Assembly: GCA_003241875.1 (NCBI GenBank)
Contig: QBLU01000029.1
Location: 1 to 54,388 of the forward strand
Reading direction: 5' to 3'
Source of the DNA: Alphaproteobacteria bacterium
Lineage (GTDB): Bacteria; Pseudomonadota; Alphaproteobacteria; Sphingomonadales; Sphingomonadaceae
Length of the DNA: 54,388 bases
Positions 14,303-36,600 of the stretch are shown one piece after another. The translations under genes and the position numbers were made by a program. Numbering within the stretch: the stretch's first letter is position 1; every line of letters begins with the position of its first letter. The notes beneath the pieces were generated by a model that did not search any database, was not told the origin of the DNA, and saw nothing but the letters and a program-made list of their open reading frames with translations.

Positions 14303-14350
14303 TGGCGCCCTCCCGTCCCCATCAGCCGCGCCGGCGCCCAAGTCAGGCCC

Positions 14351-19692: not shown

Positions 19693-19713
19693 GCCATAGC
19701 CCGCAGTTATGGC
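19693..19713 (+). promoter_or_regulatory. LysR-type dyad site 1 (upstream of receptor-CapA-M20-M20 operon)
   Basis: GCCATA (19693-19698), nine bases (gcccgcagt) and TATGGC (19708-19713) form a dyad containing ATA-N9-TAT, the spacing of LysR-type boxes. It ends 193 nt before the ATG at 19907. It matches site 2, read in the direction of its own gene, at 19 of 21 bases. Confidence 0.65.
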
Positions 19714-19752
19714 AAGGCAAAGTTATAGGTGCGGTTGAACCAAACCGTCATG

Positions 19753-19780
19753 TTGACCGGCAAGTCGCGACTGATAAGCT
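19753..19780 (+). promoter_or_regulatory. Candidate promoter of the receptor operon
   Basis: TTGACC (19753-19758) and TAAGCT (19775-19780) with a 16-base spacer lie 40-67 bp after dyad site 1. That puts the dyad near -84 if this is the promoter, a reasonable place for a LysR activator. The 5' leader would be about 120 nt. The match to the consensus is moderate. Confidence 0.35.
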
Positions 19781-19906
19781 GAGGGTCAAGTTGGGGCAGG
19801 AACGTGCGGCTTGAAAAGCGGCGATGCGACTGTCGGGCATTCGCTGACAGGGCCAGAAGGCCCGAAGCGAAAGGGTTCAGGTTGCGCCGCCGAAAAGGGG
19901 GTCTAG

Positions 19907-22828
19907 ATGCGCGTTTTGGTGTGTTCGAATGTTTTGGGTCGCAAGGCGATGGTCGCCGCGTTCCTGCTGTCGGGAGCGAGTGCCGCCTACGCACAGACGC
20001 CCGCCGCGCCGGCGCCGGCTGAGCCGTCCGTCGCGGTCGCCGAAGCCGCTACCGATGAAATCACCGTCACCGGCTCGCGCATCACGCGCAGCGGCTTCGA
20101 TCAGCCGACGCCCGTCACCGTCATCGGCACCGCCGACATCCAGGCCGCGGCGCCGGCCAACATCGCCGATTTCGTCAACCAGATCCCCTCGGTCGCCGGC
20201 AGCGTGACGCCCGCCAACAGCCAGCGCAACCTCAGCGCCGGTACCGTCGGCGTCAACACCATCAACCTGCGCAACCTCGGTTCCAACCGCACCCTGGTGC
20301 TGCTCGATGGCAAGCGCTCGGTCGGATCGACCGCGACCGGCACCGTCGATGTCAACACCATCCCGCAAGGCCTGGTGAAAAGCGTCGAAGTCGTTACCGG
20401 CGGCGCCTCGTCGGTCTATGGCTCGGACGCCGTCGCGGGTGTTGTCAATTTCATCCTCGACCGCACCTTCACGGGCCTCAAGGGCGAGCTCAGCTATGGC
20501 GAGACGACTTACGGGGACGACAACAGCCACCGCATCTCGCTCACCGGCGGTTTCGACTTTGCCGATGGCCGCGGCCATATCCTGATCAACGGTGACTATC
20601 TCCGCCGTGACGGCGTGTTCGGCGCACCGCGGCCCTGGGCCGAGCGGGGCATGCACCTCATCCAGAACCCCGGCTATACGCCGACGAACGGCGCGCCGGA
20701 GCTCATCGCCAGCGAGCGGTCGGGCCTCAACACCACGACGGGTGGCGGCATCATCACCTCCGGTGTCGCGCGCGGAACCTTTTTCGGGCCGGGCGGCAGC
20801 ATCAACCAGTATAATTATGGCGAAAATCGTCTCAACAACAGTCCCTGGACGGTTGGCGGCTCCTTCCGCGAGAGCCTTCAATATTTTGGCACCTCGATCC
20901 AGCCGGCCGAAGCGATGGAGGGCCTTTTCGGCCGCGCCAGCTTCAAGCTGTTCGACAATTTCGAAGTCTTTGCCGAGGGCACCTACAACCGCAGCAAATC
21001 GACCAACGAAGGCGGCTATGGCACCGACAAGGCCAATGTCACCATCCGGTCGGACAATGCCTTCCTTCCTGCCGCCGTGCGCGCGCAACTGCAGGCGGCG
21101 GGCCAGACAAGCTTCCTGCTGGGCACCTGGAACGCCGACCTGCCGACGCGCACGAGCAGGAATGTTCGTGAAGTGCAGCGTTATCTGGTCGGCTTCCAGG
21201 GCGACTTCAAAGTCATCGGGCTCGATTTCAACTGGGATGGCTATTACCAGAAGGGCAAGACGGTCAGCGACGAGAATGTCGAGGCCACCAACCGGACCCA
21301 GATGGGTTTCGCCCAGGATGCGGTGCTGGACAGTTCCGGCCGGATCGTCTGCCGCGTCACCCGCGACGGCAGCACCAATCCGCTCGCTGCCGGCTGCGTC
21401 CCGTTCAACCGCATGGGTATCGGCGTCAACTCGCCCGAGGCGGTCGACTATGTGACAGGCATTCCGAGCCGCCAGCAGATATTCAAGCAGGATGTCGCAG
21501 CGCTCAATTTCAATACCAAGATTCCGAACAGCTTCGTCGAGGACATCGGCCTCGCCTTCGGCATCGAGCACCGCAAGGAGCAGATTTCGGGTACCGTCGC
21601 GCCGGGATCGGAAAGCGGCTGGATCGCCGGCAACTATCTCGCCACCAACGGATCCTACACCGTCACCGAAGGCTATGTCGAAACGCTGGTGCCATTGCCG
21701 GCGGGGTTCGAGGTGAACGGTGCCGCCCGCCTGACGAGTTACAGCGAGTCGGGAACGGTGGTGACATGGAAGGCCGGGCTGAGCTGGCAGCCGATCGACG
21801 ATATCCGCGTCCGCGTCACGCGCTCGCGCGATATTCGCGCGCCCAATCTGTCGGAACTGTTCCAGGCCGGATCGCGCAACACCAATTCGGTATCGGACCC
21901 GTGGCTGAATCGAGCGGCCGTCCGCTATACCCAGACCATCACCGGCAATCTCGATCTCGATCCTGAAAAAGCCGACACCTGGGGTCTCGGCGTCGTTTTC
22001 CGGCCCTCGTTCGCGCCCGGCTTCGGCTTCTCGGTCGATTATTACGACATCAAGATCAATGGCGCGATCGGCACGCTGGGGCCGCAGGCGGTCGTGGACC
22101 GCTGCTTCGACGGCAATCTCGAGCTTTGCCAGCGGCTGCAGGCGGTCGTCGGCGGGACGCCCATTGCATTCGGTGCGCCGGGCTTTTCGCTCGCCGGCGG
22201 TGCTCCCGGTGTCCAGGAGTATCTGATCGCCAACAGCCCGTTCAATTTCCTGCAGAACCGCTCGCGCGGGCTCGATTTCGAAGCCAGCTACAGCTTCGAT
22301 CTCGCCGATGTCTTCGGCAATGCCCCCGGCGCCGTCAGCATCCGCGGGCTCGCCACGCGGTTCCTCGAAGCGTCGGAATCGAACGGCATCGATCCGGCAA
22401 CGGACACGTCGGGCGAGAACGCCTTCGGCGGCCCGCCGAAATGGACCTTCCGGGCCACGCTGGCCTACAGCGTCGATGATTTCGCGTTCCAGCTCGTCGG
22501 CCGCGGCCTCAGTTCCGGTGTCTACAACAATCAGTTCGTCGAATGCGCGAGCAGCTGCCCGGCAACCAATGCGATCAACCGCACCATCGCGAACAACCGG
22601 ATTGCCGGCGCCTTCTACCTCGATACCTATTTCGCCTACACGCTGCCCATCGAACGCGTGAAACCGCAGCTGTTCCTGCGCGTCAACAACCTGCTCAACA
22701 CCGATCCGGTGCTGATCGGCAAGGGACCTTCGGACAATTCGAACGTCGATGTCGGGATCAACCAGACGCTGTACGACTTCCTCGGCCGCACCTTCCGCGT
22801 GGGCCTGCGCTTCAACTTCGGCGGCTGA
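19907..22828 (+). CDS. Large TonB-dependent receptor, first gene of peptide-utilisation operon
   Basis: A 973-residue receptor of the large Sphingomonas/Caulobacter type. The signal peptide ends at AYAQ (residue 30), a TonB box DEITVTGSRI follows, and the plug carries LRNLGSNRTLVLLDGKR, SVEVVTGGASSVYGSDAVAGVVNF. The barrel shows RDIRAPNLSELF and LDPEKADTWGLG and ends FRVGLRFNFGG. The ATG at 19907 has AAGGGGG at good distance. Downstream are capA (32 bp gap) and two M20 peptidases in the same direction, which implies import of a peptide-like compound that those enzymes process. The LysR dyad 193 nt upstream suggests induction by the substrate. Confidence 0.92.
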   Translation: MRVLVCSNVLGRKAMVAAFLLSGASAAYAQTPAAPAPAEPSVAVAEAATDEITVTGSRITRSGFDQPTPVTVIGTADIQAAAPANIADFVNQIPSVAGSVTPANSQRNLSAGTVGVNTINLRNLGSNRTLVLLDGKRSVGSTATGTVDVNTIPQGLVKSVEVVTGGASSVYGSDAVAGVVNFILDRTFTGLKGELSYGETTYGDDNSHRISLTGGFDFADGRGHILINGDYLRRDGVFGAPRPWAERGMHLIQNPGYTPTNGAPELIASERSGLNTTTGGGIITSGVARGTFFGPGGSINQYNYGENRLNNSPWTVGGSFRESLQYFGTSIQPAEAMEGLFGRASFKLFDNFEVFAEGTYNRSKSTNEGGYGTDKANVTIRSDNAFLPAAVRAQLQAAGQTSFLLGTWNADLPTRTSRNVREVQRYLVGFQGDFKVIGLDFNWDGYYQKGKTVSDENVEATNRTQMGFAQDAVLDSSGRIVCRVTRDGSTNPLAAGCVPFNRMGIGVNSPEAVDYVTGIPSRQQIFKQDVAALNFNTKIPNSFVEDIGLAFGIEHRKEQISGTVAPGSESGWIAGNYLATNGSYTVTEGYVETLVPLPAGFEVNGAARLTSYSESGTVVTWKAGLSWQPIDDIRVRVTRSRDIRAPNLSELFQAGSRNTNSVSDPWLNRAAVRYTQTITGNLDLDPEKADTWGLGVVFRPSFAPGFGFSVDYYDIKINGAIGTLGPQAVVDRCFDGNLELCQRLQAVVGGTPIAFGAPGFSLAGGAPGVQEYLIANSPFNFLQNRSRGLDFEASYSFDLADVFGNAPGAVSIRGLATRFLEASESNGIDPATDTSGENAFGGPPKWTFRATLAYSVDDFAFQLVGRGLSSGVYNNQFVECASSCPATNAINRTIANNRIAGAFYLDTYFAYTLPIERVKPQLFLRVNNLLNTDPVLIGKGPSDNSNVDVGINQTLYDFLGRTFRVGLRFNFGG

Positions 22829-22860
22829 ACACGACCACGGCAGCAAGACAGGGGGCGTCC

Positions 22861-24285
22861 ATGATCCGATTTCAGCCAGCGGCCAAGGCATCGAAACGGG
22901 GCATCGGGACGCGCCACTTCCTTGCTGCCCTTGGTATCGCTCTCGCGGCCGCAGGGGCAGCATCGGCCCAGTCGGCCGATCCGCTGCCGGTCAGGCCGGT
23001 GCCGAGTTCGCCGATCGCTGACGGGTTCACGCTCGCGGCGGTCGGCGATCTCATTTACCTGCGGCCGATGCTGGCGACCATCGAGAAGCGCTCGCCGGCC
23101 ATGCTGAAGATCCTGCGCGATGCCGATGTCACCTTCGGCAATTTCGAAACGACGGCGCTCGATCTGGCCAGCTTCAAGGGTTCGCCGCAGGCCGAGTCCG
23201 GCGGGACCTGGATGCTCGCCGACCCCCGCGTCGTGCCCGATATCGCCAGGATGGGCTTCGACATCGTCAGCCATGCCAACAACCACGCGACCGACTGGGG
23301 CGTCGAGGGCATGGCCGAGACGCTTGTGCTCCTCGACAAATCGGCGATCGTCTATGCCGGCACCGGCCGCAACCTGACCGCGGCCCGGGCGCCGCGCTAT
23401 TTCGATGCGCCCGCCGGCCGCGTTGCGCTGGTTGCGGCGACGTCGAGCTTCACGCCGATGTCGCGCGCCTCCGATCCGCTCGGTGAAGTGCCGGGTCGGC
23501 CGGGCGCCAATACGCTGCGTACCGAGCGCGTCGGGCAGGTTTCGACCGCCGATCTTGCCACGCTGGCACGGCTTGCCGGCACCCGCGACGGGGCGCCGGT
23601 GCGTTTCAACGGCATGCGCTACGAGGCTGTAGCGAACGCCGCGACACCGATGGCCACGGCCTATATCACCAACGTGCGCGACGAGAAGGCCAACCTCACC
23701 GCGGTCCGCCAGGCGCATCAGAACGGTAATTTCGTCGCCTTCTCGCTCCACAACCACGAGCCTGGCAATGGCAGCCAGGTGCCGGCACCCTTCGCTGTCG
23801 ATTTCGCCCGCAAGGTCATCGACGCCGGCGGCGATGCCTTCATCGGCCATGGCCCGCACCAGCTGCGCGGCATCGAGATCTACAAGGGCAGGCCGATTTT
23901 CTATTCGCTCGGCAATTTTGCCATGATGAACAACTCGCTCGATGCCATCCCGGCGGACTTCTACGAACAATATGACGCCGACCCGGCCACGATCACCGCG
24001 CCGGAGCTTCTCCAGTCGCGCGGCGAGCGCTCGTTCGGTGATCCCAATCTTTATGAATCGGTGATCGCCGTCAGCCGTTACGTCGGTGGCAAGGTCGTCG
24101 AAATCCGGCTCTACCCGATCGATCTCGGGGTGTCGGCGCAAGGCGCTGCCAAGGGCGTGCCGGGGCTTGCCGATGCCACCGTCGGCCGGAGAATTCTCGA
24201 ACGCATGCAGCGGCTTTCGGAACCGCTCGGCACGACCGTCGCGATCGAAAACGGTGTCGGCGTCATCCGGGTCTCGGCAAGATAG
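22861..24285 (+). CDS. Secreted CapA/PgsA-type metallophosphatase-fold protein
   Basis: A 474-residue protein with a signal peptide ending ASAQS (about residue 37). CapA-family motifs in order are AAVGDLIYLRP, FGNFETTALD, VSHANNHATDWG, SLHNHEPG and GHGPHQLRGIEIYKGRPIFYSLGNF. CapA is known for poly-gamma-glutamate capsule synthesis or export, but capB and capC, which would make a polymer, are absent here. Its position between a TonB receptor and peptidases points instead to handling of an imported gamma-glutamyl or peptide substrate, which is inference. The ATG at 22861 follows an AGGGGG site. It lies 32 bp after the receptor and 38 bp before the first M20 gene. Confidence 0.88.
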   Translation: MIRFQPAAKASKRGIGTRHFLAALGIALAAAGAASAQSADPLPVRPVPSSPIADGFTLAAVGDLIYLRPMLATIEKRSPAMLKILRDADVTFGNFETTALDLASFKGSPQAESGGTWMLADPRVVPDIARMGFDIVSHANNHATDWGVEGMAETLVLLDKSAIVYAGTGRNLTAARAPRYFDAPAGRVALVAATSSFTPMSRASDPLGEVPGRPGANTLRTERVGQVSTADLATLARLAGTRDGAPVRFNGMRYEAVANAATPMATAYITNVRDEKANLTAVRQAHQNGNFVAFSLHNHEPGNGSQVPAPFAVDFARKVIDAGGDAFIGHGPHQLRGIEIYKGRPIFYSLGNFAMMNNSLDAIPADFYEQYDADPATITAPELLQSRGERSFGDPNLYESVIAVSRYVGGKVVEIRLYPIDLGVSAQGAAKGVPGLADATVGRRILERMQRLSEPLGTTVAIENGVGVIRVSAR

Positions 24286-24323
24286 GGCGCTGCGTGGCGG
24301 CGCTGTCACAAAGGATGAATGAC

Positions 24324-25613
24324 ATGAGACTGGCCCGATCCATCGCGGCGCTGCTGCTGGCGGCAACCGCGCTTCCCGCAGCGGCGCAGGACGTCGCTCC
24401 GGCGCAGGTTGCGGCGATGAAGAAGCTCATGGCGAGCAAGAGCTTTGCCACGGCGCGCGCCTCGCTCGATGGCGATTACGACCGGATCATAAAGGATGTC
24501 ATCACGCTGACCGAAATCGCCGCGCCGCCATTCAAGGAGGAGACCCGCGCGCGTGCCTATCTCGAAATGTTGCGCGCCGAAGGGCTGGCGGACGTGGAGA
24601 TCGACGCCGAAGGCAATGCCATGGGCCTGTGCAAGGGGACCGGCGGCGGGCCGCTGCTCGTCATCGCCGCCCACCTCGACACGGTGTTCCCGGCCGGGAC
24701 CGATGTGAAGGTGCGCCGCGAGGGCAACAAGCTGCTGGCGCCGGGGGTCGGCGACGACACCTGCAGCCTGCCGGTCCTGCTCGCCTTCATCCGCGCCATG
24801 AAGGCTGCCGACATCAGCACGAAAAGCGACATCCTGTTCGTCGGCAACGTCGGCGAGGAAGGGCCGGGCGATCTGCGCGGCGTCCGCTACCTGCTCACCA
24901 AGGGCAAGTACAAGGACGTCGACAAGCAGTTCATTTCCTTCGAGCCGGGCCGTGCCCGCGTGACCAACGCCGGCGTCGGATCGAAACGCTACAAGGTCAT
25001 CTTCAGGGGGCCGGGCGGACATAGTCTGGGGGCTTTCGGGCTGGTCAGCCCGGCCTATGCAATGGCAGCGGCGATGGTCGAGTTCGGCAAGATGCCGGTG
25101 CCGACCGAGCCGCGGACCGTGTACAATGTCGGCATTGTGGAAGGCGGCACTTCGGTCAATTCGATCCCCTTCGAGATGGCGATGACCGTCGACATGCGTT
25201 CCGAAAGCGCGACCGCGCTGCAGGCCGAAAAGGATTATCTGTTCGCGCTGGTGCCCAAGGCCGTGACCGCGGAAAACGCCACCCGGTCGACCGTTAAAGG
25301 CGCCATCACCGCCGAGATCAAGGCAATCGGCGACCGCCCCGTCGGCGCCACGCCGATGAAGTCGAACATCGTCCAGACTGCCGGCGCCGCGATGGCCGCC
25401 GCTGGCGTCACGCCGCGCTTCGGCGCCAGCTCGACCGATTCCAACCTGCCGATGAGCATCGGGATACCCGCCGTGACGCTGGGATCGGGCTTTGAAACCG
25501 AGCGCAGCCACTCGCTCGACGAGGCGCTGATCCTCGATCGCCCCGAGACGGTCAAGCACATGGCGATCGGGCTGGCGACGGTGCTCTCGCTCGCCGGCGC
25601 GTCCGTGAAGTAG
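24324..25613 (+). CDS. Secreted M20 family metallopeptidase (tandem copy A)
   Basis: A 429-residue protein with a signal peptide (to about PAAAQ, residue 22). M20 metal ligands are visible: AAHLDTVFPAGT (H117, D119), GVGDD (D144) and GEEG (E178/E179), followed by the dimerisation domain with GPGGHSLGAFG. It should be a two-zinc exopeptidase or dipeptidase in the periplasm. The start at 24324 is chosen because AAGG at 24311-24314 lies at good distance; the nearer ATG at 24315 overlaps that site. It is clearly homologous to the next gene, ten bases downstream, so the pair arose by tandem duplication. Confidence 0.9.
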   Translation: MRLARSIAALLLAATALPAAAQDVAPAQVAAMKKLMASKSFATARASLDGDYDRIIKDVITLTEIAAPPFKEETRARAYLEMLRAEGLADVEIDAEGNAMGLCKGTGGGPLLVIAAHLDTVFPAGTDVKVRREGNKLLAPGVGDDTCSLPVLLAFIRAMKAADISTKSDILFVGNVGEEGPGDLRGVRYLLTKGKYKDVDKQFISFEPGRARVTNAGVGSKRYKVIFRGPGGHSLGAFGLVSPAYAMAAAMVEFGKMPVPTEPRTVYNVGIVEGGTSVNSIPFEMAMTVDMRSESATALQAEKDYLFALVPKAVTAENATRSTVKGAITAEIKAIGDRPVGATPMKSNIVQTAGAAMAAAGVTPRFGASSTDSNLPMSIGIPAVTLGSGFETERSHSLDEALILDRPETVKHMAIGLATVLSLAGASVK

Positions 25614-25622
25614 GACCATCCG

Positions 25623-26906
25623 ATGCGTTGCCATCATCGTTCGTTTGTCGCCGCGCTGTTGCTGGGGTCTGCACCGCTGACGGCGGCGCCGCCCACGCCG
25701 GCAGCGGTCGCGACGATCAAGCGGATCGAAGCCAGCCCGGGCTTTGCCAGGGCGATGACGGCGATCGAGTCCGGTCACGACAAATGGGTCGGCGACATCA
25801 TCACCCTGACCGAAATTCCGGCGCCGCCGTTCAAGGAAGCCGCTCGCGCCAAGGCCTATCGCGACATGTTCGCCGCCCGGGGTCTGGAGGACGTCGAGAT
25901 CGATGCCGAGGGCAATGTCCTCGGGCTTCGAAGGGGCGGCGGCGACGGCCTCATCATCGTGTCGGCGCACATCGACACGGTTTTCCCCGAGGGCACGCCC
26001 GTCAAGGTCCGCCGCGATGGCGACAAGCTTCATGCCCCGGGTGTCGGTGACGACAGTACCGGGCTTGCGACCCAACTGGCCTTTATCGACGCGATGAACG
26101 CCGGCGGCATTCGCACCCGGGCCGACATCCTGTTCGTCGGGACCGTCGGCGAGGAAGGCCGCGGCGACCTGCGCGGGGTCCGTCACCTGTTCACCAAAAG
26201 CAAGTACCAGGGCCGGGCCAAGGCGTTCTTCTCCATCGACGGCGGCGGCATGAACAGCCTGACGACCGGCGGCGCCGGATCGAAACGGTATCGGGTCGTG
26301 TTCAAGGGGCCGGGCGGCCACAGCTATGGCGCCTTCGGGCTCGTCAACCCGATGACAGCGATGTCGCAAGCCGTCGTCGATTTCTACAAGATCGAGGTGC
26401 CCGCCGATCCCAGGACGACCTATAGCGCCAGCGTTGTCGGCGGCGGCACTTCGGTCAACGCCATCCCGCGCGAAGTCTGGATGGAGTTCGACATGCGATC
26501 GGCAAGCGCTGCCGAACTGGCAAAGGTCGAGACGCGGTTTCTGGCCATCCTGCAGTCGGCCGCCGAAGCCGAGAACAGCGCCCGTTCAACCCGCGAGGGG
26601 CGGATCACGGTCGAGCCCAAGCTGGTCGGCGACCGGCCCGCCGGCCAGACACCGCTGACTGCCGACATCGTGCAATTCTCCACGGCGGCGCACGCTGCCG
26701 AAGGCATCGAGGTCAGATACAGTTCGGGATCGACCGATTCCAACATCCCGATCAGTCTGGGCGTCCCCGCGATCACGATCTCGCGGGTCGCCACCAGCGG
26801 TCGCAACCATTCGCCGGACGAATGGATCGGCATCGAAAAGGCCAACAACGTCAAGGTCAAGCGGATCGGGCTGGCGACGATCCTGGCGTCTGCCGGAATG
26901 GAGTGA
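25623..26906 (+). CDS. Secreted M20 family metallopeptidase (tandem copy B)
   Basis: A 427-residue paralogue of the preceding gene, sharing blocks such as TEIxAPPFKE, VEIDAEGN, APGVGDD, GEEG, GDLRGVR, GSKRY and GPGGHS. The signal peptide is short (MRCHHRSFVAALLLG to about TAAPP). Ligands are in SAHIDTVFPEGT, GVGDDSTG and GEEGRGD. The copies differ around the metal and substrate region (DDTCSLP in A, DDSTGLA in B; SFEPGRARV against SIDGGGMNS), which suggests divided substrate preference. It is the last gene of the receptor operon; a GC-rich hairpin follows before the convergent M14 gene. Confidence 0.9.
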   Translation: MRCHHRSFVAALLLGSAPLTAAPPTPAAVATIKRIEASPGFARAMTAIESGHDKWVGDIITLTEIPAPPFKEAARAKAYRDMFAARGLEDVEIDAEGNVLGLRRGGGDGLIIVSAHIDTVFPEGTPVKVRRDGDKLHAPGVGDDSTGLATQLAFIDAMNAGGIRTRADILFVGTVGEEGRGDLRGVRHLFTKSKYQGRAKAFFSIDGGGMNSLTTGGAGSKRYRVVFKGPGGHSYGAFGLVNPMTAMSQAVVDFYKIEVPADPRTTYSASVVGGGTSVNAIPREVWMEFDMRSASAAELAKVETRFLAILQSAAEAENSARSTREGRITVEPKLVGDRPAGQTPLTADIVQFSTAAHAAEGIEVRYSSGSTDSNIPISLGVPAITISRVATSGRNHSPDEWIGIEKANNVKVKRIGLATILASAGME

Positions 26907-26911
26907 GGCGG

Positions 26912-26945
26912 CCGGCGGCCCGGGGCATCATCGCCCGGCCGCCGG
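26912..26945. terminator. Bidirectional GC-rich hairpin between M20-B and M14 genes
   Basis: CCGGCGGCC (26912-26920) and GGCCGCCGG (26937-26945) are exact inverse copies, with further GGG/CCC pairing inside the loop. It sits in the 45-bp gap between two convergent genes. There is no clear T-run, so it is a terminator candidate only. Confidence 0.5.
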
Positions 26946-26951
26946 TCTCGC

Positions 26952-29762
26952 TCAGTCGCGTCCGCTCGCCGCGCCGGCCTGGCTCGGGCCATAATAGAGC
27001 CCGTTGAGCAGGAACCTGAAGGTCCCATAGGCCTGGCCGCGCTGGGTGACTTCGGGGGCCAGGACAAAGACCTTGCCCTTGCCGACATCGGCATCGATGA
27101 CGCCGCTGGTGTCGTTCAGTGCCTTTTGCCCCCAGGCCCAGCCCGATTTCAACGGATCTTCGCTGGCGAACCAGGACACCCGCTTCACATTCGCAGCGCC
27201 CGCGGTGATCATGTACGTCGGATTGTTGTTGTAGAAGACCATCGCGGTCTCCGGCATGCCATAGGCGAGCGGGTTGCTGGGATCGACCTTGGCTTCGAGC
27301 ACCGATCCCGGGACATAGTATTTGGTGCTCGGCAGCATCGTGCGCTTGCCGCTGGCATCGACGGCTGACAGCGCGTTGACGATCGGCACGCCGAGGTCGG
27401 CCGCCATTGCGGAGGCATTGCCGACGGTGATCACCGTGCCGCCGGCGCGCGCGAACGTGGCAAGCTGGGGCAGGGTCTTTTCCGGCGTGATGTTGCCCAG
27501 CGCCATGTGCCATTGCGCCGGAATATCCTCGGGCTTCGGCTGGCTGCGCACGCGGCCTTCGCGGCCCATCAGGTCGCCCTGGAACACCAGCACATCGTAT
27601 TTGCGATTGAGGCCGCCCTTGTCGAGTTCCTGCGGATAGACCTTGGTGTAGGGGAACTCATATTGTTCGAAGATCCAGCGGGTATGGCCTGATGCCATCG
27701 ATCCGCCATAGATATCGACGAGGCCGATGCGCGGCTGCTTGACCGAAATCGTGCTGCCATCGGGCTTGGCGGCGACGGCATAGACATCGAGACCGAGCGA
27801 GCGGGTGGCTTCGTCGAGGATCGGCCTGGCCTTGGCGCTGGCCGGAATCCACAGCGCGCCCGGCGCCATTGCGGCTCCGGCGACAGTCGTCGCTTCCTTG
27901 ATCCAGTACATCGGCACGCCGGCCTTGAGCAGCCGGTTGGTCAGCGTGAAGCTGTTGTTGGACGCGTGGCTGACGACATGGCCGGCACTGCCCGAGCCCA
28001 GCATCTTGCCCGCCGGCGGTGTTTCGATCAGGTCGGGAACGAGCGGGAAGTGCGGCGGTGCGCCGTCGAGCATGCGATCGACGCCGACGTTCATCTGGTA
28101 GGCGAGTGTATAGCCGGTGACGTCATAGGGACGCACAGGGGGCCCGCCGGGATAGGCGAAATCCTGCGGGTGGTCCTGGGGTTCGAACATGTCGAGGACG
28201 TGCGGGCGGAAGGCCTGGTCGGTGCGGACGACATACGACCCGGCGGGATAGGTCTTGCCGCCGAAGCTGAACTCGGAATCGGCTTTTTCGACCTCGATAC
28301 CCGTCTTGATCAGCGCGTTGAGGAACTTGATCGTCGTCGGCATGTCGCGCTGCCCGGTCGCCGACATGATATAGGCACGCGGCGCGCGCATTGCCGGATC
28401 CTGCAACACCGACTTGTACAGCGACGACGGGATGATGGCGCGGGTGTCGTAACCGACCAGCCCGTCGAGCGGGCTGCCGCTTGCCGGCTTGGCCATCTTG
28501 GCGGCTTCGGCCTTGGCGGCGTCGATGCGCTTGGGCGTGACCACCCAGCTGTCCTCGCTGCCCTTCCGGATCTGGTTCCGGCCCATGATGTAACGGTTGT
28601 AGAGAACCGTCTCGCGATAGCGCGACGCATAGTCGAGCACGGCGCGATCCATCTCCTTGATGTAATCGAGCGACTGCTGGAAATGCCACTTCTGCGGCGC
28701 GATCGTCATCACCTGGTCCTGGCGATTGAGCTGGTTGGCCGGCACGAACGGAATTTCCATCGGCGTCGGGCTGCCTATGATCTCGGTCAGGATGCCGATC
28801 TGGTTATGAAAATAGCCGATCGTGCGAATGCCGCCGTTGAACCAGGTCGAATAGGGCGCGCCCGAACGCGAAATCGATCCGCCCTTGCCCTGTGCCACCA
28901 GCCGCGCATGCATGGCCGTGCCGACGGCATCGGTCTGGTTGATGACCAGCGGCTCGTTGTTGTAGTTATAGGGATCGCGGAATGGCGGAATGAAGACGAC
29001 GGTCCCGACCGGGCCGGTCTGGTGTTCATTGTACAGGATCTGCGGGAACCAGTCGCGGTACGCCGCCTTGTTCATGTTGGTGGTTTCGGGCTGGTTCGAA
29101 ATGAAGCTGTCGCGGTTGTTATCATGACCGATGTACTTCTGGTACAACAGCGGGATCGAATTGGTATCGCGCTTGGTCTTGTCGGTCGGGCGCATGTACC
29201 AGTCGGCCACGAGCTCCAGTCCATCCGGGTTGGCAAAGACAAACAGCATGATGTCGTCGTTGAGCAACCGCAGCGTCTCGGGATCGTTCTGCGTCAGCAT
29301 TTCATGGATGATCTGGATGTGCGTCTGGACGTTGGTCACTTCGGTCGCGTGCAGACCGGCGTCGATCCAGACGACCGCCTTGCCTTCGGCGGCGAGCGCC
29401 TTTGCCGATTCATCGGTCAGGCCCTTGGCGAGCGCGAGCTTCTTGGCGATGTCGCGATACTTCTCCAGGTTGCGGATGTTATCGGGCGACGAGATGACCG
29501 CCATATATTGCTCGCGCCCCTCGGCGGACTTGCCGATGCTGACGAGCTTCATGCGGTCGCTTTCGACGGCGACGGCCTTCAACCATTTTTCAAGCTGGGT
29601 GTTGTTGGCGAGGAAATAGTCGGTCCCCGGGGCAACCTGCATGACAGTGACGGGTGCGGTGATCCGCGCCGCCGTCGCAGGCGCCAGCTGCGCCAGGGCC
29701 GGCGCCATCGCCACGCTGGAGGCGACGGCCAGCATCGTCGTGGTGAGCAGAATAGCGCGCAT
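26952..29762 (-). CDS. Secreted M14 family zinc carboxypeptidase-like protein, long form
   Basis: A 936-residue protein with signal peptide ending ALAQ (residue 25). M14 zinc ligands are GLHATE (H138, E141) and YNEHQTG (H247); DNNRD at 214-218 is typical of substrate binding in this family. The C-terminal two thirds is an extra region that includes a Rossmann-like, glutamine-amidotransferase-like part near residue 680 (PRIGLVDIYGGS, then YDVLVFQGDLMGREGR) and a beta-rich end. The length is two to three times that of classic carboxypeptidases but known for bacterial M14 proteins of this type. The ATG at 29762 follows AAAGGGAGAG. It has its own promoter region with dyad site 2, 192 nt upstream, and is convergent with the M20 genes. 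Confidence 0.9.
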   Translation of the reverse strand: MRAILLTTTMLAVASSVAMAPALAQLAPATAARITAPVTVMQVAPGTDYFLANNTQLEKWLKAVAVESDRMKLVSIGKSAEGREQYMAVISSPDNIRNLEKYRDIAKKLALAKGLTDESAKALAAEGKAVVWIDAGLHATEVTNVQTHIQIIHEMLTQNDPETLRLLNDDIMLFVFANPDGLELVADWYMRPTDKTKRDTNSIPLLYQKYIGHDNNRDSFISNQPETTNMNKAAYRDWFPQILYNEHQTGPVGTVVFIPPFRDPYNYNNEPLVINQTDAVGTAMHARLVAQGKGGSISRSGAPYSTWFNGGIRTIGYFHNQIGILTEIIGSPTPMEIPFVPANQLNRQDQVMTIAPQKWHFQQSLDYIKEMDRAVLDYASRYRETVLYNRYIMGRNQIRKGSEDSWVVTPKRIDAAKAEAAKMAKPASGSPLDGLVGYDTRAIIPSSLYKSVLQDPAMRAPRAYIMSATGQRDMPTTIKFLNALIKTGIEVEKADSEFSFGGKTYPAGSYVVRTDQAFRPHVLDMFEPQDHPQDFAYPGGPPVRPYDVTGYTLAYQMNVGVDRMLDGAPPHFPLVPDLIETPPAGKMLGSGSAGHVVSHASNNSFTLTNRLLKAGVPMYWIKEATTVAGAAMAPGALWIPASAKARPILDEATRSLGLDVYAVAAKPDGSTISVKQPRIGLVDIYGGSMASGHTRWIFEQYEFPYTKVYPQELDKGGLNRKYDVLVFQGDLMGREGRVRSQPKPEDIPAQWHMALGNITPEKTLPQLATFARAGGTVITVGNASAMAADLGVPIVNALSAVDASGKRTMLPSTKYYVPGSVLEAKVDPSNPLAYGMPETAMVFYNNNPTYMITAGAANVKRVSWFASEDPLKSGWAWGQKALNDTSGVIDADVGKGKVFVLAPEVTQRGQAYGTFRFLLNGLYYGPSQAGAASGRD

Positions 29763-29954
29763 GTGACTCTCCCTTTGGCGCTCGGCGCCCATCGAACACG
29801 GCAATGTTGCGCCAGCCCTGGCGCGTGTCGATAGCCTGGCCGGCCGGGAGCGATTGCCTGTGTCGCGCTGCCGCCGCTCCCGCTGCGAGGATAGCCTGGA
29901 GCGACGGTAAAGCGAGTTGGCATCGGAATGCCTGTCCCACCAAGCGTGATGTGC

Positions 29955-29975
29955 GCCATAGCCGCGGGCTATGGC
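29955..29975 (-). promoter_or_regulatory. LysR-type dyad site 2 (upstream of M14 gene)
   Basis: GCCATA (29955-29960), nine bases and TATGGC (29970-29975) form the core of a perfect 11-bp inverted repeat (29953-29977, 3-nt loop). It ends 192 nt before the M14 ATG, matching site 1 (193 nt) in distance and orientation. It also lies 10 bp after the stop of the upstream PLP gene, so a terminator hairpin is an alternative reading. Confidence 0.65.
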
Positions 29976-29987
29976 GCCGATCCCGGC

Positions 29988-31001
29988 TCAGGCCGCCTGC
30001 GCCGTCGCCCCCAGGATGCCCTGGTTGGCGTAGAGGACCGGCGAACCGCCGGTATGGAGAAACAGCACCTGTTCATCGCGTGAAATTTCGCCCGATCGGA
30101 CGAGGGCGATCAGGCCGGCGGCCGCCTTGCCCGTGTAGACCGGATCGAGCAACACGCCCTCGGTGGCGGCGAACAGCCGGACCGCGGCGATCATCTCGGG
30201 CGTCGGCAAGGAGTAGCCGGGGCCGACCCATTCGTCGCGACAGACGATCGCGTCGCGCGGCACGGGCGCCGAGGCGCCGGCAAACGCCGCGACTTCGACG
30301 GCGAGCTTGTGGACATTGGCCTCCTGCTCGGCGCGGGGCCGGCGGACGTTTATGCCCGTGACCGGGATGCCGGCGCTGTTGCCGACCAGACCGGCGACCA
30401 GGCCGGCGTGGGTACCGGCGCTGCCGCTGGCGACCACGATGCGATCGATCCGGAGCGATTGTTCAAAGGCTTGCTGCAGGATTTCCTCGGCGCAGGCGAC
30501 ATAGCCGAGCGACCCGAGCGGGTTCGATCCACCCCCGGGAATGATATAGCCGCGGCGGCCCTGGGCGGCGAGCGCCGCCTGCATGGCCGCCATTGCCCCG
30601 GCCAGATCGGCACCGAGATCGACGACCTCGATCTTTTCGACGCCGAGCAGGTCGAACAGGAAGTTATTGCCCGACGCGTCGGCGTGATAGCTGCCCGGAA
30701 CCCGCTGTTCGAGCACGAGCTGGCATTTCAGGCCTTCGCGCACCGCTGCGGCGGCGGTCAGCCGGCAATGGTTCGATTGCACGGCGCCGACCGTGATCAG
30801 CGTGTCGGCCCCCTGCGCCAGTGCATCGGCGACAAGGAATTCGAGCTTGCGGGTCTTGTTGCCACCGCCCGCCAGCCCGAGCAGATCGTCGCGCTTGATC
30901 AGCAACCGGGCGCCGCCAAGTTCCCTTGCAAGGTGCGGCATCGCCTCGATCGCGGTGGGATGCGGGGTGTAACGCCGACGTTCAAATCGCGCGAGGTTCA
31001 T
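29988..31001 (-). CDS. dcyD: D-cysteine desulfhydrase / ACC deaminase family PLP enzyme
   Basis: A 337-residue cytoplasmic enzyme of the fold-type II PLP group. The lysine motif GGGNKTRKLEF (K49) followed by TVGAVQSNHCRLTAAAA, and ASGSAGTHAGLVAGL for phosphate binding, are the signature of D-cysteine desulfhydrase and ACC deaminase. The GNKTRKLE form favours D-cysteine desulfhydrase or a broad D-amino acid deaminase. It would yield ammonia and a 2-oxo acid from D-amino acids. The ATG at 31001 has GGAG eight bases upstream; residues before it in the open frame are not conserved. It lies between the M14 gene and the LysR gene on the same strand, with dyad site 3 250 nt upstream. Confidence 0.82.
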   Translation of the reverse strand: MNLARFERRRYTPHPTAIEAMPHLARELGGARLLIKRDDLLGLAGGGNKTRKLEFLVADALAQGADTLITVGAVQSNHCRLTAAAAVREGLKCQLVLEQRVPGSYHADASGNNFLFDLLGVEKIEVVDLGADLAGAMAAMQAALAAQGRRGYIIPGGGSNPLGSLGYVACAEEILQQAFEQSLRIDRIVVASGSAGTHAGLVAGLVGNSAGIPVTGINVRRPRAEQEANVHKLAVEVAAFAGASAPVPRDAIVCRDEWVGPGYSLPTPEMIAAVRLFAATEGVLLDPVYTGKAAAGLIALVRSGEISRDEQVLFLHTGGSPVLYANQGILGATAQAA

Positions 31002-31250
31002 GCGTTCGCTCCATGGCGTCAGATCGGGCGCTTCCCGCACAGGCGCGACACGATCCGGCTGGAACGGGCCGGTCCTGCACCCTCGTTGCCGACGGTGTGC
31101 CGCGAATCGGCAGCCGGGCTGCCAGTCCCGGATTCGGCGTGCCATCGATGCCCAAGGGCAGCACGCAGTCCCCCAAACTGCCAGACTGGCGCCTTTCTGG
31201 TAGATCGGGCGCTGCGCAGCAAGTGAGCGCCTATTCAGACTGTGCCGGTG

Positions 31251-31271
31251 GCCATAGCCTGGGGCTAGGTC
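31251..31271 (-). promoter_or_regulatory. Degenerate LysR-type dyad site 3 (upstream of dcyD-type gene)
   Basis: On the plus strand GCCATA (31251-31256), nine bases and TAGGTC (31266-31271); read towards the PLP gene it matches site 2 at 17 of 21 positions. It ends 249 nt before the ATG at 31001 and overlaps the last codons of the LysR gene. The remaining 250 bp to the PLP gene hold no recognisable gene. Confidence 0.45.
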
Positions 31272-32197
31272 ACGACCTGAACCTCCGCGACGCTTTCGGG
31301 CTCGATCGGCGGCGTGGCGATCGACTCGCGCATCACCAGCCGCTGCAGATCGAGGAAGCTCCGCGCCAGCCGCGACAGCGGTTGTTCGATGAGGTGGAGT
31401 GCCTTCAGCTCGAAGGTCACCTCGGGCGCGAGCAGGCGGAACTCGAGCTCGCTGTCGACAAAGCCGCGCGCGGTGAATTCGTCGACCAGCGCGATGCCGG
31501 CGCCGTGTCGCGCCATGCCGGCGGCGATGTACACCGAGTGGACGACGATCGCCGGCTGCACGGCTTCAGGCCCCGTTTCGGTGCTGACGAGGTCGGCGAT
31601 GGCGACCCCCGGGGCCAGCCCGATGACATCCTGGCGCTGCAGATCGCGCAGGCTGATCGTGGTGCCCGGCACCGGCAAAAGGCCGCGTTTGAAAAGCGCC
31701 CCGACATGGCCCAACCCCAAGGGAACGCTGGCGAATTCAGGATCCGGAAGGAGGTGGTGGCCGATGACGAAATCGCATTCGCGCGACACCAGTGCGTCGC
31801 GAAAACGGTCATGGTGAATAGCGCTGACGTCGAAGGCGATCCCCGGCAACCGACGGCGGAAGCGCGCCACGACTTCGGGCGTGATCGACAGCGCCAGCGA
31901 AGGCAGCACGCCCATCCGGATCTTGCCGGCCAGCGAGGAGCGCAGGTTGCGCGCTGTCCGCTGGAAGGTGTCGATGCGGGCGTGGAGATCGTCGACTTCG
32001 CGGAACAGCACATGCGATTCCTGGGTCGCCATCAGGCGCCCCTTGACCAGCTTGAACAGCGGGAAGCCCAGCCGCGATTCCGCGTGGCGGATGACCTTGC
32101 TCACCGATGGTTGCGAGACATTGAGAAGGCGTGAGGCGCCGCTGATCGACCCGACCGAATAAACGGCGTGAAACACCTCGATCTGCCGGAGATTCAA
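31265..32197 (-). CDS. LysR family transcriptional regulator
   Basis: A 310-residue regulator. The N-terminal winged helix-turn-helix (RQIEVFHAVYSVGSISGASRL and LNVSQPSVSKVIRHAE, residues 4-45) is followed by a linker helix and a periplasmic-binding-like effector domain (IRMGVLPSLALSITPEVV). The start is TTG at 32197 with a strong AAAGGAGGAG site; no ATG fits. The N-terminus resembles OccR/NocR-type regulators of opine and amino acid catabolism. It is flanked by the PLP gene and divergent from the efflux genes. A TGATA-N9-TATCA dyad lies 54 bp upstream of its own start, suggesting autoregulation. Confidence 0.92.
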   Translation of the reverse strand: MNLRQIEVFHAVYSVGSISGASRLLNVSQPSVSKVIRHAESRLGFPLFKLVKGRLMATQESHVLFREVDDLHARIDTFQRTARNLRSSLAGKIRMGVLPSLALSITPEVVARFRRRLPGIAFDVSAIHHDRFRDALVSRECDFVIGHHLLPDPEFASVPLGLGHVGALFKRGLLPVPGTTISLRDLQRQDVIGLAPGVAIADLVSTETGPEAVQPAIVVHSVYIAAGMARHGAGIALVDEFTARGFVDSELEFRLLAPEVTFELKALHLIEQPLSRLARSFLDLQRLVMRESIATPPIEPESVAEVQVVT

Positions 32198-32250
32198 TTG
32201 CTCCTCCTTTCCGCGTTGCGAATGTGCTGCCCAACCCGGTCCTGACCGAT

Positions 32251-32269
32251 TGATACACGGAGGTTATCA
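32251..32269. promoter_or_regulatory. LysR-type dyad in the regulator/efflux divergent promoter region
   Basis: TGATA (32251-32255), nine bases and TATCA (32265-32269) form a perfect ATA-N9-TAT dyad. It ends 54 bp before the LysR start codon, the normal place of an autoregulatory LysR box, and about 208 bp before the efflux adaptor start. Outer bases differ from sites 1-3. Confidence 0.5.
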
Positions 32270-32477
32270 GTTAAGCACGAAATGCCAACGCCCCTGTCAT
32301 TGCGCTGCAACAAAACATCGACGTGCGGCGTTTTCACCACACCTGGCGCGGCCGGGCCGAGCGCCCACGCCGCGGCGGCCGCCGCCGGAAATTCGCATTG
32401 CAGGACATTGGAAACTGTGGCGCTCTGCACGGGCTCGGCGGCAGCGCCGTAACGAATCACCGTCATCGGAACCGAAA

Positions 32478-33644
32478 ATGCGCCTTGCGATGAAACCGCC
32501 AAAGCGATCGCGCCCGGCCCGCCTTGCAGCTTCGGCTTCGGCTTCGGCTTCGGCTTCTGCTTCGGCCTCGGCGTTCGCGGGCGGCCGCGTGGCGCTGTGC
32601 GGATCCTTCATGATGCTGGCGGTCGCGCTCGCCGGCTGCGGTGCCGATGGCGCCAGGGGCGCGGCCAAGGCCGGCGGCAAGCAGCCGCCGCTGGTCGCGG
32701 TGGTGACACCCCGGCCGCACCGTTTCATCAGTCGCATCGAAGCGGTGGGAACGGCGCGCGCCAACGAACAGGTGACATTGTCGTCGGCGGTCACCGAGCG
32801 CATCGACCGGCTGTCGTTCCGCGATGGCGGCTTTGTCCAGAAGGGCCAGATCATCGCCATGCTGGCGCAGGGCGAGGAACAGGCCGCGCTCGCCGGTGCG
32901 CGGGCCGAGGCGAAGCAGGCGCAGCACCAGCTCGAGCGTGTCCAGGCGCTCGGCGCCCGCGGCTTTGCCACTGGCGCGCTCGTCGAATTGCAGGAGGCGA
33001 CCGCGCGCCGGGCGCAGGCACAGGCGGCGAGCGCCGAAGCCCAGATCGCCGATCGTGTCATTCGCGCGCCCTTCGCCGGCTTTGCGTCGCTGCGCACGAT
33101 TTCGGAAGGCGCCATCGTCAACAGCGGCGCGCCGATCGCCACGATCAGCGACCTGTCGCGGATCAAGCTCGATTTCACGGTTCCCGAAACGGCGTTGCGC
33201 AGCTTGCGGCGCGGCCAGCCGATCATCGCCACCGCGGCGGCCTGGCCCGACCAGCCGGTGCGCGGCACGATCGAAACGATCGATCCGGTGATCGACCCGG
33301 CCACCCGCGCGGTCACGGTGCGCGCCGTCCTCGCCAACCCCGACACGCGGCTGAAACCCGGCATGCTGTTGACCATCGCCATCGAGGCGGAAGCGCGCGA
33401 GGGCTGGGCGGTGCCCGAAATGGCGATCACCGGCGACGGCGCCGACCGCTTTGTCCATGTCGTCGATGCGGCCGGCAAGGCCCGCCGCAAGCGTGTGGTG
33501 GTGGGGGTGCGCGATGCCGGGCTGATCGAGGTCACCGGCCTCCCAGCCGATGCGCGCGTCATCACCGAAGGCGTCGTCAAGGTCAGCGACGGCAGCCGTG
33601 TCCGCATCCGTGGCGGCGAACCGAAGGTCGTGGCCGCGCCATGA
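32478..33644 (+). CDS. RND efflux periplasmic adaptor (membrane fusion protein), lipoprotein
   Basis: About 388 residues. The adaptor core has VAVVTPRPHRFISRIEAVGTAR, a barrel-sandwich lipoyl part, a coiled-coil hairpin (AGARAEAKQAQHQLERVQAL to ARRAQAQAASAEAQIADRV) and GTIETIDPVIDPATRAVTVRA. A lipobox MLAVALAGC makes it an inner-membrane-anchored lipoprotein. The N-terminus is odd: a long basic stretch and then (Ala-Ser)n encoded by a hexanucleotide repeat before the lipobox. Start choice is uncertain: ATG 32478 (GGAA six bases upstream), ATG 32490, or an ATG at the lipobox. It overlaps the pump gene by ATGA. Confidence 0.85.
   Translation: MRLAMKPPKRSRPARLAASASASASASASASAFAGGRVALCGSFMMLAVALAGCGADGARGAAKAGGKQPPLVAVVTPRPHRFISRIEAVGTARANEQVTLSSAVTERIDRLSFRDGGFVQKGQIIAMLAQGEEQAALAGARAEAKQAQHQLERVQALGARGFATGALVELQEATARRAQAQAASAEAQIADRVIRAPFAGFASLRTISEGAIVNSGAPIATISDLSRIKLDFTVPETALRSLRRGQPIIATAAAWPDQPVRGTIETIDPVIDPATRAVTVRAVLANPDTRLKPGMLLTIAIEAEAREGWAVPEMAITGDGADRFVHVVDAAGKARRKRVVVGVRDAGLIEVTGLPADARVITEGVVKVSDGSRVRIRGGEPKVVAAP
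32529..32570 (+). repeat. Hexanucleotide repeat (GCTTCG, seven units)
   Basis: Seven consecutive GCTTCG units (unit five is GCTTCT, unit seven GCCTCG) encode Ala-Ser repeats at the N-terminus of the adaptor. Such arrays can change length by slippage. A change by whole units keeps the frame and would only alter the signal region. Confidence 0.85.
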
Positions 33645-36600
33645 TGCTTTCCGATGTCTCGGTGAAGCGGCCGGTGCTGGCTGCCGTCGGGGCGATCCTC
33701 ATCACGTTGCTCGGCGCCGTCGGCTATCTCAACCTGTCGGTGCGCGAATATCCCGAGACCGACCCGCCGGTGGTTTCCGTCAGCACGATCTACACCGGCG
33801 CTGCCGCGTCGGTCGTCGAAAGCCGTGTCACCCAGCCGCTCGAGGAACGCCTTGCCGGGATCGAGGGGATCGAGACGATCTCGTCGCGCTCGTCCGATGG
33901 TCGTTCCGACATCAGCATCGAATTCAAGCCGTCGAGCAATGTCGACAATGCCGCCAATGACGTCCGCGACCGCGTCGCCGGCGCGCAGCGCGACCTTCCC
34001 GATGAAGTCCTCGCGCCCGAGGTCCGCAAGGTCGATGCCGATGCCCAGCCGATCATCTATGTCGTCATCCGGGCGCCGGCCTGGGAAAAGACGCGGCTGT
34101 CCGACTGGGTCGAACGCTTCATGGTCGACCGCTTTTCGACGCTCCCCGGCGTTGCACTCGTCCAGTTCAGCGGCCAGGCGCGCCCCTCCATGCGGGTCTG
34201 GCTGGATATCGACAGGCTCGCCGCATTTCGCCTGACGCCGAATGACGTCGAAGCGGCGCTGCGCCGGCAGAATGTCGAACTGCCCGCCGGCCGCATCGAA
34301 TCGACCCAGCAGAACGTGTCGTTGCGCGTCACCCGCGGGTTCCAGACGCCGGCGGACTTTCGCAGCCTCGTCATCGGTCGCGGCGTCGATGGCTATCTCG
34401 TCCGGCTCGGCGATGTCGCCCGCGTCGAACAGGGTGCCGAGAACCCCTATACGTCGTTCCGCTTCAAGGGCGAGACGGCGCTCGGGCTGGGCATGGTCCG
34501 CCAGTCGGGCGCCAACACGCTCGAGGTCGCGCGCGCGGTCAAGGCGCTCGTCGCCGAGCTCGAACCGGGGCTGCCGGATGGCGTATCGATTGCCCTTGGC
34601 TCCGATAACTCGCTGTATATCGAACGCGCCATCGACGAAGTCTGGAAGACGCTCGCCGAAGCCACCCTGCTTGTGGTGCTCGTCATCTTCATCTTCGTCG
34701 GCAGCTGGCGCGCCACGCTGATTCCGGCGATCACCGTCCCGATCTGCCTGCTCGGCACGTTCGCGGTGCTGTGGCTGTTCGGTTATTCGATCAACCTGCT
34801 CACCTTGCTGGCGCTCGTCCTGGCGATCGGGCTGGTCGTCGATGACGCGATCGTCGTCCTGGAGAACGTCCACCACCGCATCGAACAGGGTGATACGCCG
34901 CTCGTCGCCGCCTATCGCGGCACCCGCCAGGTCGGTTTTGCGGTCATCTCGACAACATTGGTCGTCTGCGCCGTCTTTGTCCCGCTGATGTTCATCGCCG
35001 GACAGACCGGGCTGCTGTTTCGCGAACTGGCGGTCGCCATGATCGCCGCGATCGCGCTGTCGGGCGTGCTGGCGCTCACGCTCGTGCCGATGCTGTGTTC
35101 GAAGCTGCTGCGCCGCGGCGAGGGCGGTCGCATGGCGCAGCTTGTCGATCGCAATTTCCAATGGCTCGAAGGGCGCTACAAGCAGGGTCTGCAGGCCACG
35201 CTCGCGCGTCCGCTGGCGCCGCTGCTGTTCGTCGCCGCCTTCCTCGGCCTTGCCGGCTGGCTCTTCACCACGCTCAATCTCGAACTGATCCCGGCCGAGG
35301 ACACCAGTGTTCTCGAAGTCCGCCTCAACGCCCCCGAGGGCACCAGCTTTGCCCAGCTCGATCGCTATACGAGCGAGGTCGAAACGCTGCTGCTGCCGAT
35401 GACCGCGGGCCAGGCGCCGGTGCGCGGCTTCAACGCGCGGTTGCCGGCGTCCTTTGGCGCCTCGGAGGATTTCAACGCCGGCGGGATGACCGTCTATCTG
35501 CGGCCCTGGGAGGAACGTACCCAGCAATCGGCCGAGGTGGCACGCGCAATCACCGCCCGGCTGCAGGACGTCGCCGGGGTTCGGGGCAACGCCACCGTCC
35601 GTTCGTCGCTCGGCCGCGGCCGTGGCCAACCGGTGAATTTCGTCATCGCCGGCGCCAGCTATGAACAACTCGCCCGTGCGCGCGACCGGCTGCTCGCCGC
35701 CGCCGAAGCCAATCCCGGGCTGGTCAACATCGACGCCGACTATGTCGAATCGAAACCGCAGATGCTCATCGATGTCGACAGTGGCCGCGCCGGCGATCTC
35801 GGCGTGTCGGTCGACGATGTCAGCCAGGCGCTGCAGACGCTGATGGGCTCGCGCCGGGTGTCGACCTATGTGGAGAATGGCGAGGAATATCGCGTCATCG
35901 TCCAGGCCGATGCCGCCGAGCGCGATACCGAAGGCCGGCTCGATGCGGTCTATGTGCGTTCGCGATCAGGGGCGCTGGTGCCGCTCGGCAATGTCGTCCA
36001 CACCCGCGACAGCGCGTCGGCGCGCGAGCTCGGCCGCTTCAACAAGATGCGCGCCATCACCCTGCAGGGCGGGCTGGCGCCGGGCTATCCGCTGGGCACG
36101 GCTCTGGCGTTCCTGGAGGCGGAGGCCGCCAAATCGCCCGAAGTGCTGGCCATCGGCTATCGCGGCGAAAGCCAGTCATTGAAGCAGACCGACAGCGCGA
36201 TCTGGGTGGTCTTCGGCGTCACCATCCTCGTCATCTACCTGCTGCTCGCCGCGCAGTTCGAAAGCTTTGTCCATCCGGCGATCATCATCACCACGGTGCC
36301 GCTGGCGGTCGGCGGCGGGATCATCGGGCTGGCGGCGGCAGGCCTGACGCTCAACCTCTACAGCCAGATCGGCATCGTCATGCTCGTCGGCCTCGCCGCC
36401 AAGAACGGCATCCTGATCGTCGAGTTCGCCAACCAGCTTCGCGACGCGGGGCGCGCCTTCGACGAGGCGGTTGTCGAGGCGGCGGCACGGCGGCTGCGCC
36501 CCATCCTGATGACGTCGATCGCGACCGTCCTCGGTGCCGTGCCGCTGGCGGTGAGCAGCGGCGCCGGCGCCGGCGCGCGTTCGGCAATCGGTGTCGTCCT

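Follow-up and report, generated by a model that had tools for sequence, protein, structure and literature searches.

A candidate LysR operator shared with dgcN loci and its apparent promoter shift in one clade

LysR-type transcriptional regulators usually recognise a T-N11-A site near position −65 and use a second, activating site around −35, and T-N11-A boxes are common to many proteins of this family. DgcR reportedly regulates the dgcN-dgcA genes of D-glutamate catabolism in Pseudoalteromonas. Passages in PMC10845958 and PMC12363236 deal with DgcN. A literature search on LysR proteins linked to DgcR/dgcN, DadA, CuyA or D-cysteate, with subscription papers mostly outside its scope, returned no description of the operator considered here. 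We compare with these systems a locus in a 54,388-nt stretch of sphingomonad DNA, the whole of which we refer to as the window. Judged from sequence, what seems new at this locus is a shifted promoter geometry, and what seems familiar is the operator itself, which is common to the dgcN-linked LysR family.

Dyads and genes in the window

A preliminary description of the window had reported three copies of GCCATA-N9-TATGGC. Two are exact, dyad 1 at 19693–19713 (forward strand, centre 19703) and dyad 2 at 29955–29975 (reverse strand, centre 29965), and the third, site 3 at 31251–31271 (reverse strand), carries two mismatches. Dyads 1 and 2, both predicted LysR recognition sites, belong to longer dyads with 9-bp arms, GCCATAGCC-N3-GGCTATGGC; the arms are perfect in dyad 2 and have two changes in dyad 1. 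As described, dyad 1 ends 193 nt from the ATG of the TonB receptor gene (19907) and dyad 2 ends 192 nt from that of the M14 gene (29762, reverse strand). The reported agreement of 19 of 21 bases between them holds if each is read toward its own gene and drops to 16 of 21 on the forward strand, and their shared orientation says little because the dyad is a palindrome. The match in position goes deeper than the distance to the ATG: the centres of both dyads lie exactly 72 nt ahead of a −10-like hexamer.

Dyad 1 precedes four forward-strand genes, encoding a TonB-dependent receptor (19907–22828; PF00593, PF07715), a CapA-like protein of the PGA_cap type (22855–24285, start codon not fixed; PF09587) and two M20-family peptidases (24294–25613 and 25623–26906; both PF01546). 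The CapA-like protein also has a distant NCBIfam match to the lasso-peptide epimerase MslH, which scores 255 bits where the cut-off is 700. On the reverse strand are an M14-family zinc carboxypeptidase (26952–29762; PF00246), a PLP enzyme (29988–31001; PF00291) and the LysR-type regulator (31265–32197). The PLP enzyme scores 508.4 bits against the equivalog cut-off of 450 for NCBIfam NF052482, which places it by sequence in the CuyA (D-cysteate sulfo-lyase) family. The regulator matches PF00126, the N-terminal HTH_1 domain (52.5 bits), and PF03466, the LysR substrate-binding domain (96.3 bits), both above cut-off, and is thus of the LysR type; a search with this protein and a Vibrio-type LysR returned no solved-structure match at limits of 1e-15 and 1e-20.

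Several other features surround these genes. An RND-type efflux pair (HlyD-like adaptor and AcrB-like pump; 32610–36751, forward) is divergent from the LysR gene, and homologues of the pair adjoin LysR in loci L073 and L074 too. Two large related sortilin/BNR-repeat proteins flank the locus (14351–17437, reverse; 38292–41345, forward), and some 10 kb separate the LysR gene from an IS66-family transposase gene (41932–43587, forward).

The nearest orthologous loci are in two genomes of the same genus. One (G017) shares the TonB receptor (81% identity), CapA (79%), M20 (80–82%), M14 (83%), CuyA (86%) and LysR (84%) with the window and carries one M20 gene only, the second copy not having been found there; the other (G012), whose contig ends inside the M14 gene, shares M14 (89%), CuyA (88%) and LysR (87%). 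The dyad ahead of M14 is kept in both genomes and the dyad ahead of the TonB receptor in G017, in surrounding DNA that has largely drifted.

Site 3 spans the LysR stop codon, 249 nt upstream of the likely CuyA ATG (31001). Its only sound arm is the GGCTATGG half, the other arm being degenerate. A GYTATGG half in the gap after LysR is kept in all eight related loci examined, as read from upstream stretches, and in 6/8 if the search is restricted to the gaps proper; in L074 and L077 it sits within the end of LysR. It precedes cuyA in seven of these loci and, in G314, another gene upstream of cuyA. An element with TGAA follows the half at a near-fixed distance in 7/8. The proposal that the PLP gene answers to the same regulator is thus retained in part, with one half-site and a second element upstream across the eight related loci examined; a −10 box could not be assigned for this half-site. 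Sites at the LysR stop codon and ahead of the next gene are frequent among family members (L106, L116, Vibrio and Sphingobium are examples), so site 3 could be what is left of an ancestral one.

Ahead of the LysR gene a repeat TGATA-N9-TATCA is present as described (32251–32269, reverse strand), 53 nt rather than 54 from the start codon (32197). It does not make a convincing operator, and the self-regulation proposed through it was abandoned: its left half is part of the likely LysR −10 box, and its symmetry, kept bar one base in G012, is lost in G017, L073 and L074. The likely promoter, read by eye, has −10 TAACCT (32261–32266) and −35 TTGGCA (32283–32288). Among twelve upstream stretches this layout recurs in five, as TTGGCA-N16-TANNNT in the window, G012, L073 and L074 and with TTGAAA in G017. 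Other branches of the family do have a dyad upstream of their LysR gene.

Distribution of the dyad among LysR relatives and dgcN loci

Relatives of the window LysR were sought in one genome per species across 84,980 species, and the best 80 of 110 were kept. Removal of four duplicates of loci already included (L075, L080, L081 and L124) and addition of nine further loci and the window gave a set of 86 loci. Among these 86 loci (best 80 of 110 relatives), in which related loci are not independent and genes were called with our own simple hexamer-score caller, the relaxed motif YATARC-N5-GYTATR occurs 73 times between genes and twice inside them, with called genes making up 1.54 of 1.70 Mb. Sixty scrambled palindromes run on the same best-80-of-110 loci gave means of 0.35 intergenic and 0.25 genic matches, the largest counts being 12 and 2.

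An intergenic site at no more than one mismatch is present in 72 of the 86 loci (best 80 of 110). In the same set, sites lie upstream of the DadA-like dehydrogenase gene in 23 of 32 cases, of dgcN in 16 of 18 and of LysR itself in 21 rows; they also precede genes for TonB receptors, gamma-glutamyltransferase, RidA, CapA, M20 and M14. The 14 loci of this best-80-of-110 set without a site at this threshold comprise seven from Achromobacter/Bordetella, at 31–32% LysR identity, together with G211 (two mismatches), L079, L082, L085, L109, L117 and L118. L139 and L149 share only 28% LysR identity yet carry exact sites, so the reach of the motif is not fixed by LysR identity alone. Nineteen LysR loci came from other genomes; eleven of these (L049–L059), with short flanks, were scanned for the motif only, and two match with one mismatch. 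A T-N11-A dyad is therefore conserved ahead of the linked genes, at loci of LysR relatives in both Alpha- and Gammaproteobacteria, and it is well supported by these sequence comparisons that the dyads are operators of the LysR family encoded alongside.

We also approached the motif from dgcN. A search for dgcN matched at E ≤ 1e-120 in 68 of 398 Pseudomonadota genomes, 62 of them above cut-off, and 20 dgcN regions were fetched by choice, mostly from other families (one, G113, was also met through its LysR). Sixteen of the 20 have a site at no more than one mismatch, which in 14 lies about 100 nt before dgcN. L203, L206, L214 and L215 have none at this threshold, and L203 and L206 have a LysR relative nearby. 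The 30 top-scoring dgcN loci (L167–L196, 1.5-kb flanks), 22 of them from one alphaproteobacterial family, contain neither the dyad at this threshold nor a LysR relative, and control of dgcN may therefore be different in them. Vibrio fortis, V. pelagius and Sphingobium yanoikuyae have annotated LysR-dgcN-dgcA loci, and in each of the three one exact dyad is located at the LysR stop codon and before dgcN. The motif is thus a candidate operator for a large D-amino-acid-linked regulator family extending from Sphingomonadales to Vibrio, with regulons that could be read from genomes. Additional exact dyads at L202:1638, L202:8578 and L207:2345, in two gammaproteobacterial loci and 2.4–4.5 kb from the dgcN dyad, suggest wider regulons there.

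A LysR tree built from 67 rows places the window in a group of 13 clade members with SH-aLRT 100 (a quick tree, with some long branches elsewhere). By our own clustering of the best-80-of-110 set, the window-type M14 gene is found at 12 of 13 clade loci versus 1 of 73 outside, CuyA at 9/13 versus 0/73, CuyB at 5/13 versus 0/73, and the window-type M20 gene at 8/13 versus 0/73. Conversely, DadA, DgcN and RidA are found at none of the 13 clade loci and at 32, 18 and 12 of the 73 outside. A different M14/AstE-like cluster is present at 12 outside loci of this set, so the mere presence of peptidases is no novelty. In L074, CuyA and CuyB lie side by side, both above their cut-offs. Clade-specific LysR residues cluster at 71–78, 126–167 and 196–222; by analogy with the usual layout of LysR proteins, the first would belong to the linker helix and the other two to the ligand-binding domain.

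The window encodes two Amidohydro_3 proteins of a single sequence cluster (12701–14341, reverse; 4473–6014, forward). A member of this cluster occurs near the LysR relative at 29 of the 73 loci outside the clade (best 80 of 110), as if these amidohydrolases were common partners of the LysR family.

Spacing between dyad and promoter

We determined the distance from dyad to promoter by reading −10 boxes as TANNNT at a fixed offset from the dyad centre; these boxes are predicted, and a strict promoter scan reported no promoter in the TonB and M14 upstream stretches of the window. The predicted TonB-operon promoter (19753–19780, forward) consists of TTGACC (19753–19758), a 16-nt spacer and TAAGCT (19775–19780), with the −10 box at +72 from the dyad centre, and G017 has a similar layout, TTGACG-N16-TACTCT, with the −10 box at +73. 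The predicted M14 −10 box, TATCCT (29888–29893, reverse), also starts at +72; in G012 and G017 it is TATTCT at +73. Elsewhere in the clade the offset is +72 or +73 in four Sphingomonas M20 loci, +74 for the TonB gene of G314, and +72 for the M14 gene of L076 and the TonB gene of G211.

In the wider family a −35-like ATTG lies near +27 to +30 and a −10-like TANNNT at +51 to +53. Within the best-80-of-110 set, TANNNT is present at +71 to +75 in 12 of 18 clade rows versus 1 of 116 others, at 51–53 in 57 of the 116 non-clade rows, and at 50–54 in 1 of the 18 clade rows. Two of the clade rows (L076 M14 and G211 TonB) had failed the distance or mismatch filter and were added by hand, their tree labels also being hand-set; without them the count at 71–75 is 10 of 16. 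In 2000 shuffles of the clade rows the mean at 71–75 was 0.65 and the count was never above 4. At the sites reached through dgcN, TANNNT lies at 51–54 in 12 of 14. The LysR tree requires one switch of spacing label among its 44 labelled rows, the other 23 of 67 rows being uncounted for want of a single spacing label. The dyads of the clade thus seem to lie about two helical turns (20–21 bp) further from the gene start than those of relatives, which from the predicted −10 boxes corresponds to positions near −85 in the clade and near −65 in relatives.

There are exceptions on both sides. Within the clade, G007, G051, the cuyA half-site and three weak sites in L077 and L078 depart from +72. Outside it, TANNNT is missing at +52 and present at +75 in S. 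yanoikuyae; L198 and L201 show it at +71, and in L201 it also stands at +52. The second element after the dyad, which in the wider family is largely the −35-like ATTG, has a mixed place in ten clade rows, where a shift of 0 fits best on average and a weaker rise occurs at +21/+22.

An alternative explanation is that the dyads are operators of the linked LysR and the two-turn shift is an artefact, the hexamer at +72 not being a −10 box or the clade promoters all descending from a single inherited one. The start points are predicted ones, the clade contributes 18 rows only, two of them hand-added, and the exceptions above would fit this explanation. The M14 and M20 promoters may also be related: both have CTCG near −35 and could have arisen from a single ancestral promoter, and for this reason do not count as independent. 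However, the same offset is found in ten loci and at two window promoters that are dissimilar outside the dyad (TTGACC-type for TonB, CTCG-type for M14), and +72 is nearly empty outside the clade just as +52 is nearly empty inside it. We consider an artefact unlikely.

If the displacement is real, it makes it possible to study how activation geometry changes jointly across the promoters of a single regulon. A broader reading, which we put forward tentatively and hold at somewhat below even chances, is that the clade moved the operators of its main promoters by two turns in step with the changes in the LysR linker and ligand domain and with a pathway swap, from oxidation of D-glutamate and D-amino acids to uptake and cleavage of a peptide bearing cysteate or D-cysteine. 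The possibility that the M14 and M20 promoters are one, and the misfit of cuyA, G007 and G051, reduce the odds of such concerted rewiring; if true, it would be a natural case of activation geometry rewired in concert.

Specificity of the sites and comparison with described systems

We then considered what is expected by chance within single genomes. At up to three mismatches to the dyad the window has 25 matches, versus 12.8 ± 3.3 in shuffles, and weak dyad matches are therefore mostly noise. In the window's own genome a single place, dyad 2 at 29955, matches the 18-base dyad perfectly, and six places match with two mismatches, dyad 1 and site 3 among them; at up to three mismatches there are 37 places versus 10 for the pattern read backwards. 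Across the 3.82 Mb of this genome the relaxed motif is exact only at dyads 1 and 2. This compares with three exact matches for the backwards control, and at one mismatch the motif has 28 places versus 47. Since the relaxed motif does not exceed its control, its number proves nothing, and it is the comparative evidence that carries the case. The place of the exact sites within the genome is nonetheless unusual: they are at most 10.3 kb apart and each lies ahead of a gene. Counts of the relaxed motif per genome were tried as a test of co-occurrence and set aside as uninformative; the motif occurs at least once in 105 of 197 relatives' genomes, often below the backwards control, and is too common to separate genomes.

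The window's own genome has a second CuyA-like gene (G000:C51:17136–18125), 68% identical and similar to the version that most genus mates carry. It also has a dgcN-like gene that scores below cut-off (G000:C34:20426–21382). The exact relaxed motif is found near neither of them, and the 18-kb region around the dgcN-like gene contains no LysR relative and no site at up to one mismatch.

The dyads might instead serve another regulator, for example an OxyR-like protein recognising ATAG-N7-CTAT. T-N11-A boxes are widespread among LysR proteins, the OxyR half-site resembles a half of the window dyad, and sites are missing from the Achromobacter/Bordetella relatives and from two dgcN loci with a LysR relative. 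However, the intergenic enrichment was obtained at loci picked solely for the LysR family, where sites often fall at the LysR start or stop, and for a global regulator one would anticipate a number of exact genomic sites above two; we regard the involvement of another regulator as quite improbable. A last reading, as transcription terminators or REP-like palindromes in 3' flanks, would suit a dyad 2 that starts 13 nt past the CuyA stop codon, a site 3 that overlaps the LysR stop, the many LysR-stop sites of relatives and arms that could pair as hairpins, but we rejected it as very remote, as no T-run follows the dyads, a terminator scan made no report of them, their distance to a −10-like box is constant, the dyad is not a dispersed repeat in its own genome, and in L127, L129, L131 and L133 the site lies between divergent genes, 21–29 nt before LysR and 55–56 nt before CapA.

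The dyads are very probably binding sites of the adjacent LysR-type protein. On the observed sites, their conservation, their −10-like spacing and the gene content, we further consider it highly likely that they are primary LysR recognition sites governing the TonB operon, the M14 gene and cuyA, with a clade geometry near −85. The preliminary description had one regulator drive this whole set and itself; comparison supports this for the TonB operon and the M14 gene and partly, through the half-site, for the PLP (CuyA) gene, and gives no support to it for the regulator itself.

We infer binding, activation, an inducer and the start points as follows. The LysR protein would control a local set made up of the TonB receptor-CapA-M20-M20 operon, the M14 carboxypeptidase and, via the half-site, the CuyA-type lyase. 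It would occupy the dyad, and an inducer derived from an imported substrate would trigger activation of the downstream promoter; activation is favoured over repression because the dyad lies upstream. The TonB operon and M14 would be activated from about −85, on the same DNA face as −65, and cuyA from its half-site; with the dyad near −85, the protein should contact RNA polymerase over a longer range. Candidate substrates are D-amino acids, sulfonated amino acids (cysteate being one example) and peptides that contain them. Cysteate is a better guess than D-cysteine because CuyB adjoins CuyA in L074, although the CuyA-family enzyme of the window could act on D-cysteine instead.

Three described systems offer comparisons. 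The window enzyme resembles CuyA of CuyA/CuyB cysteate catabolism (NF052482, NF052483) in scoring above cut-off, and the CuyA-CuyB pair is present in L074; it differs in that the window gene is linked to a TonB receptor and peptidases, at a locus without CuyB. Classical LysR-type regulators share the ATA-N9-TAT core, and the dyad centre in the wider family, about 52 nt before the −10 box, falls near −65 as in those regulators, whereas the centre in the window clade lies about 72–73 nt before the predicted −10 box, near −85. With the DgcR system, as judged by gene neighbourhood, several features are shared: in Vibrio and Sphingobium a LysR gene lies directly before dgcN-dgcA, these regulators fall in one tree with the window LysR (a quick tree, several deep forks of which are weak or flagged for long branches), and the dyad before dgcN is the same as the window dyads. 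Unlike that system, the 13 clade loci contain no dgcN cluster member, and thus no sign of dgcN-dgcA control, and no DadA; they have M14, M20, CuyA and CuyB instead, and their dyads appear to be set back from the −10 box by some two additional turns.
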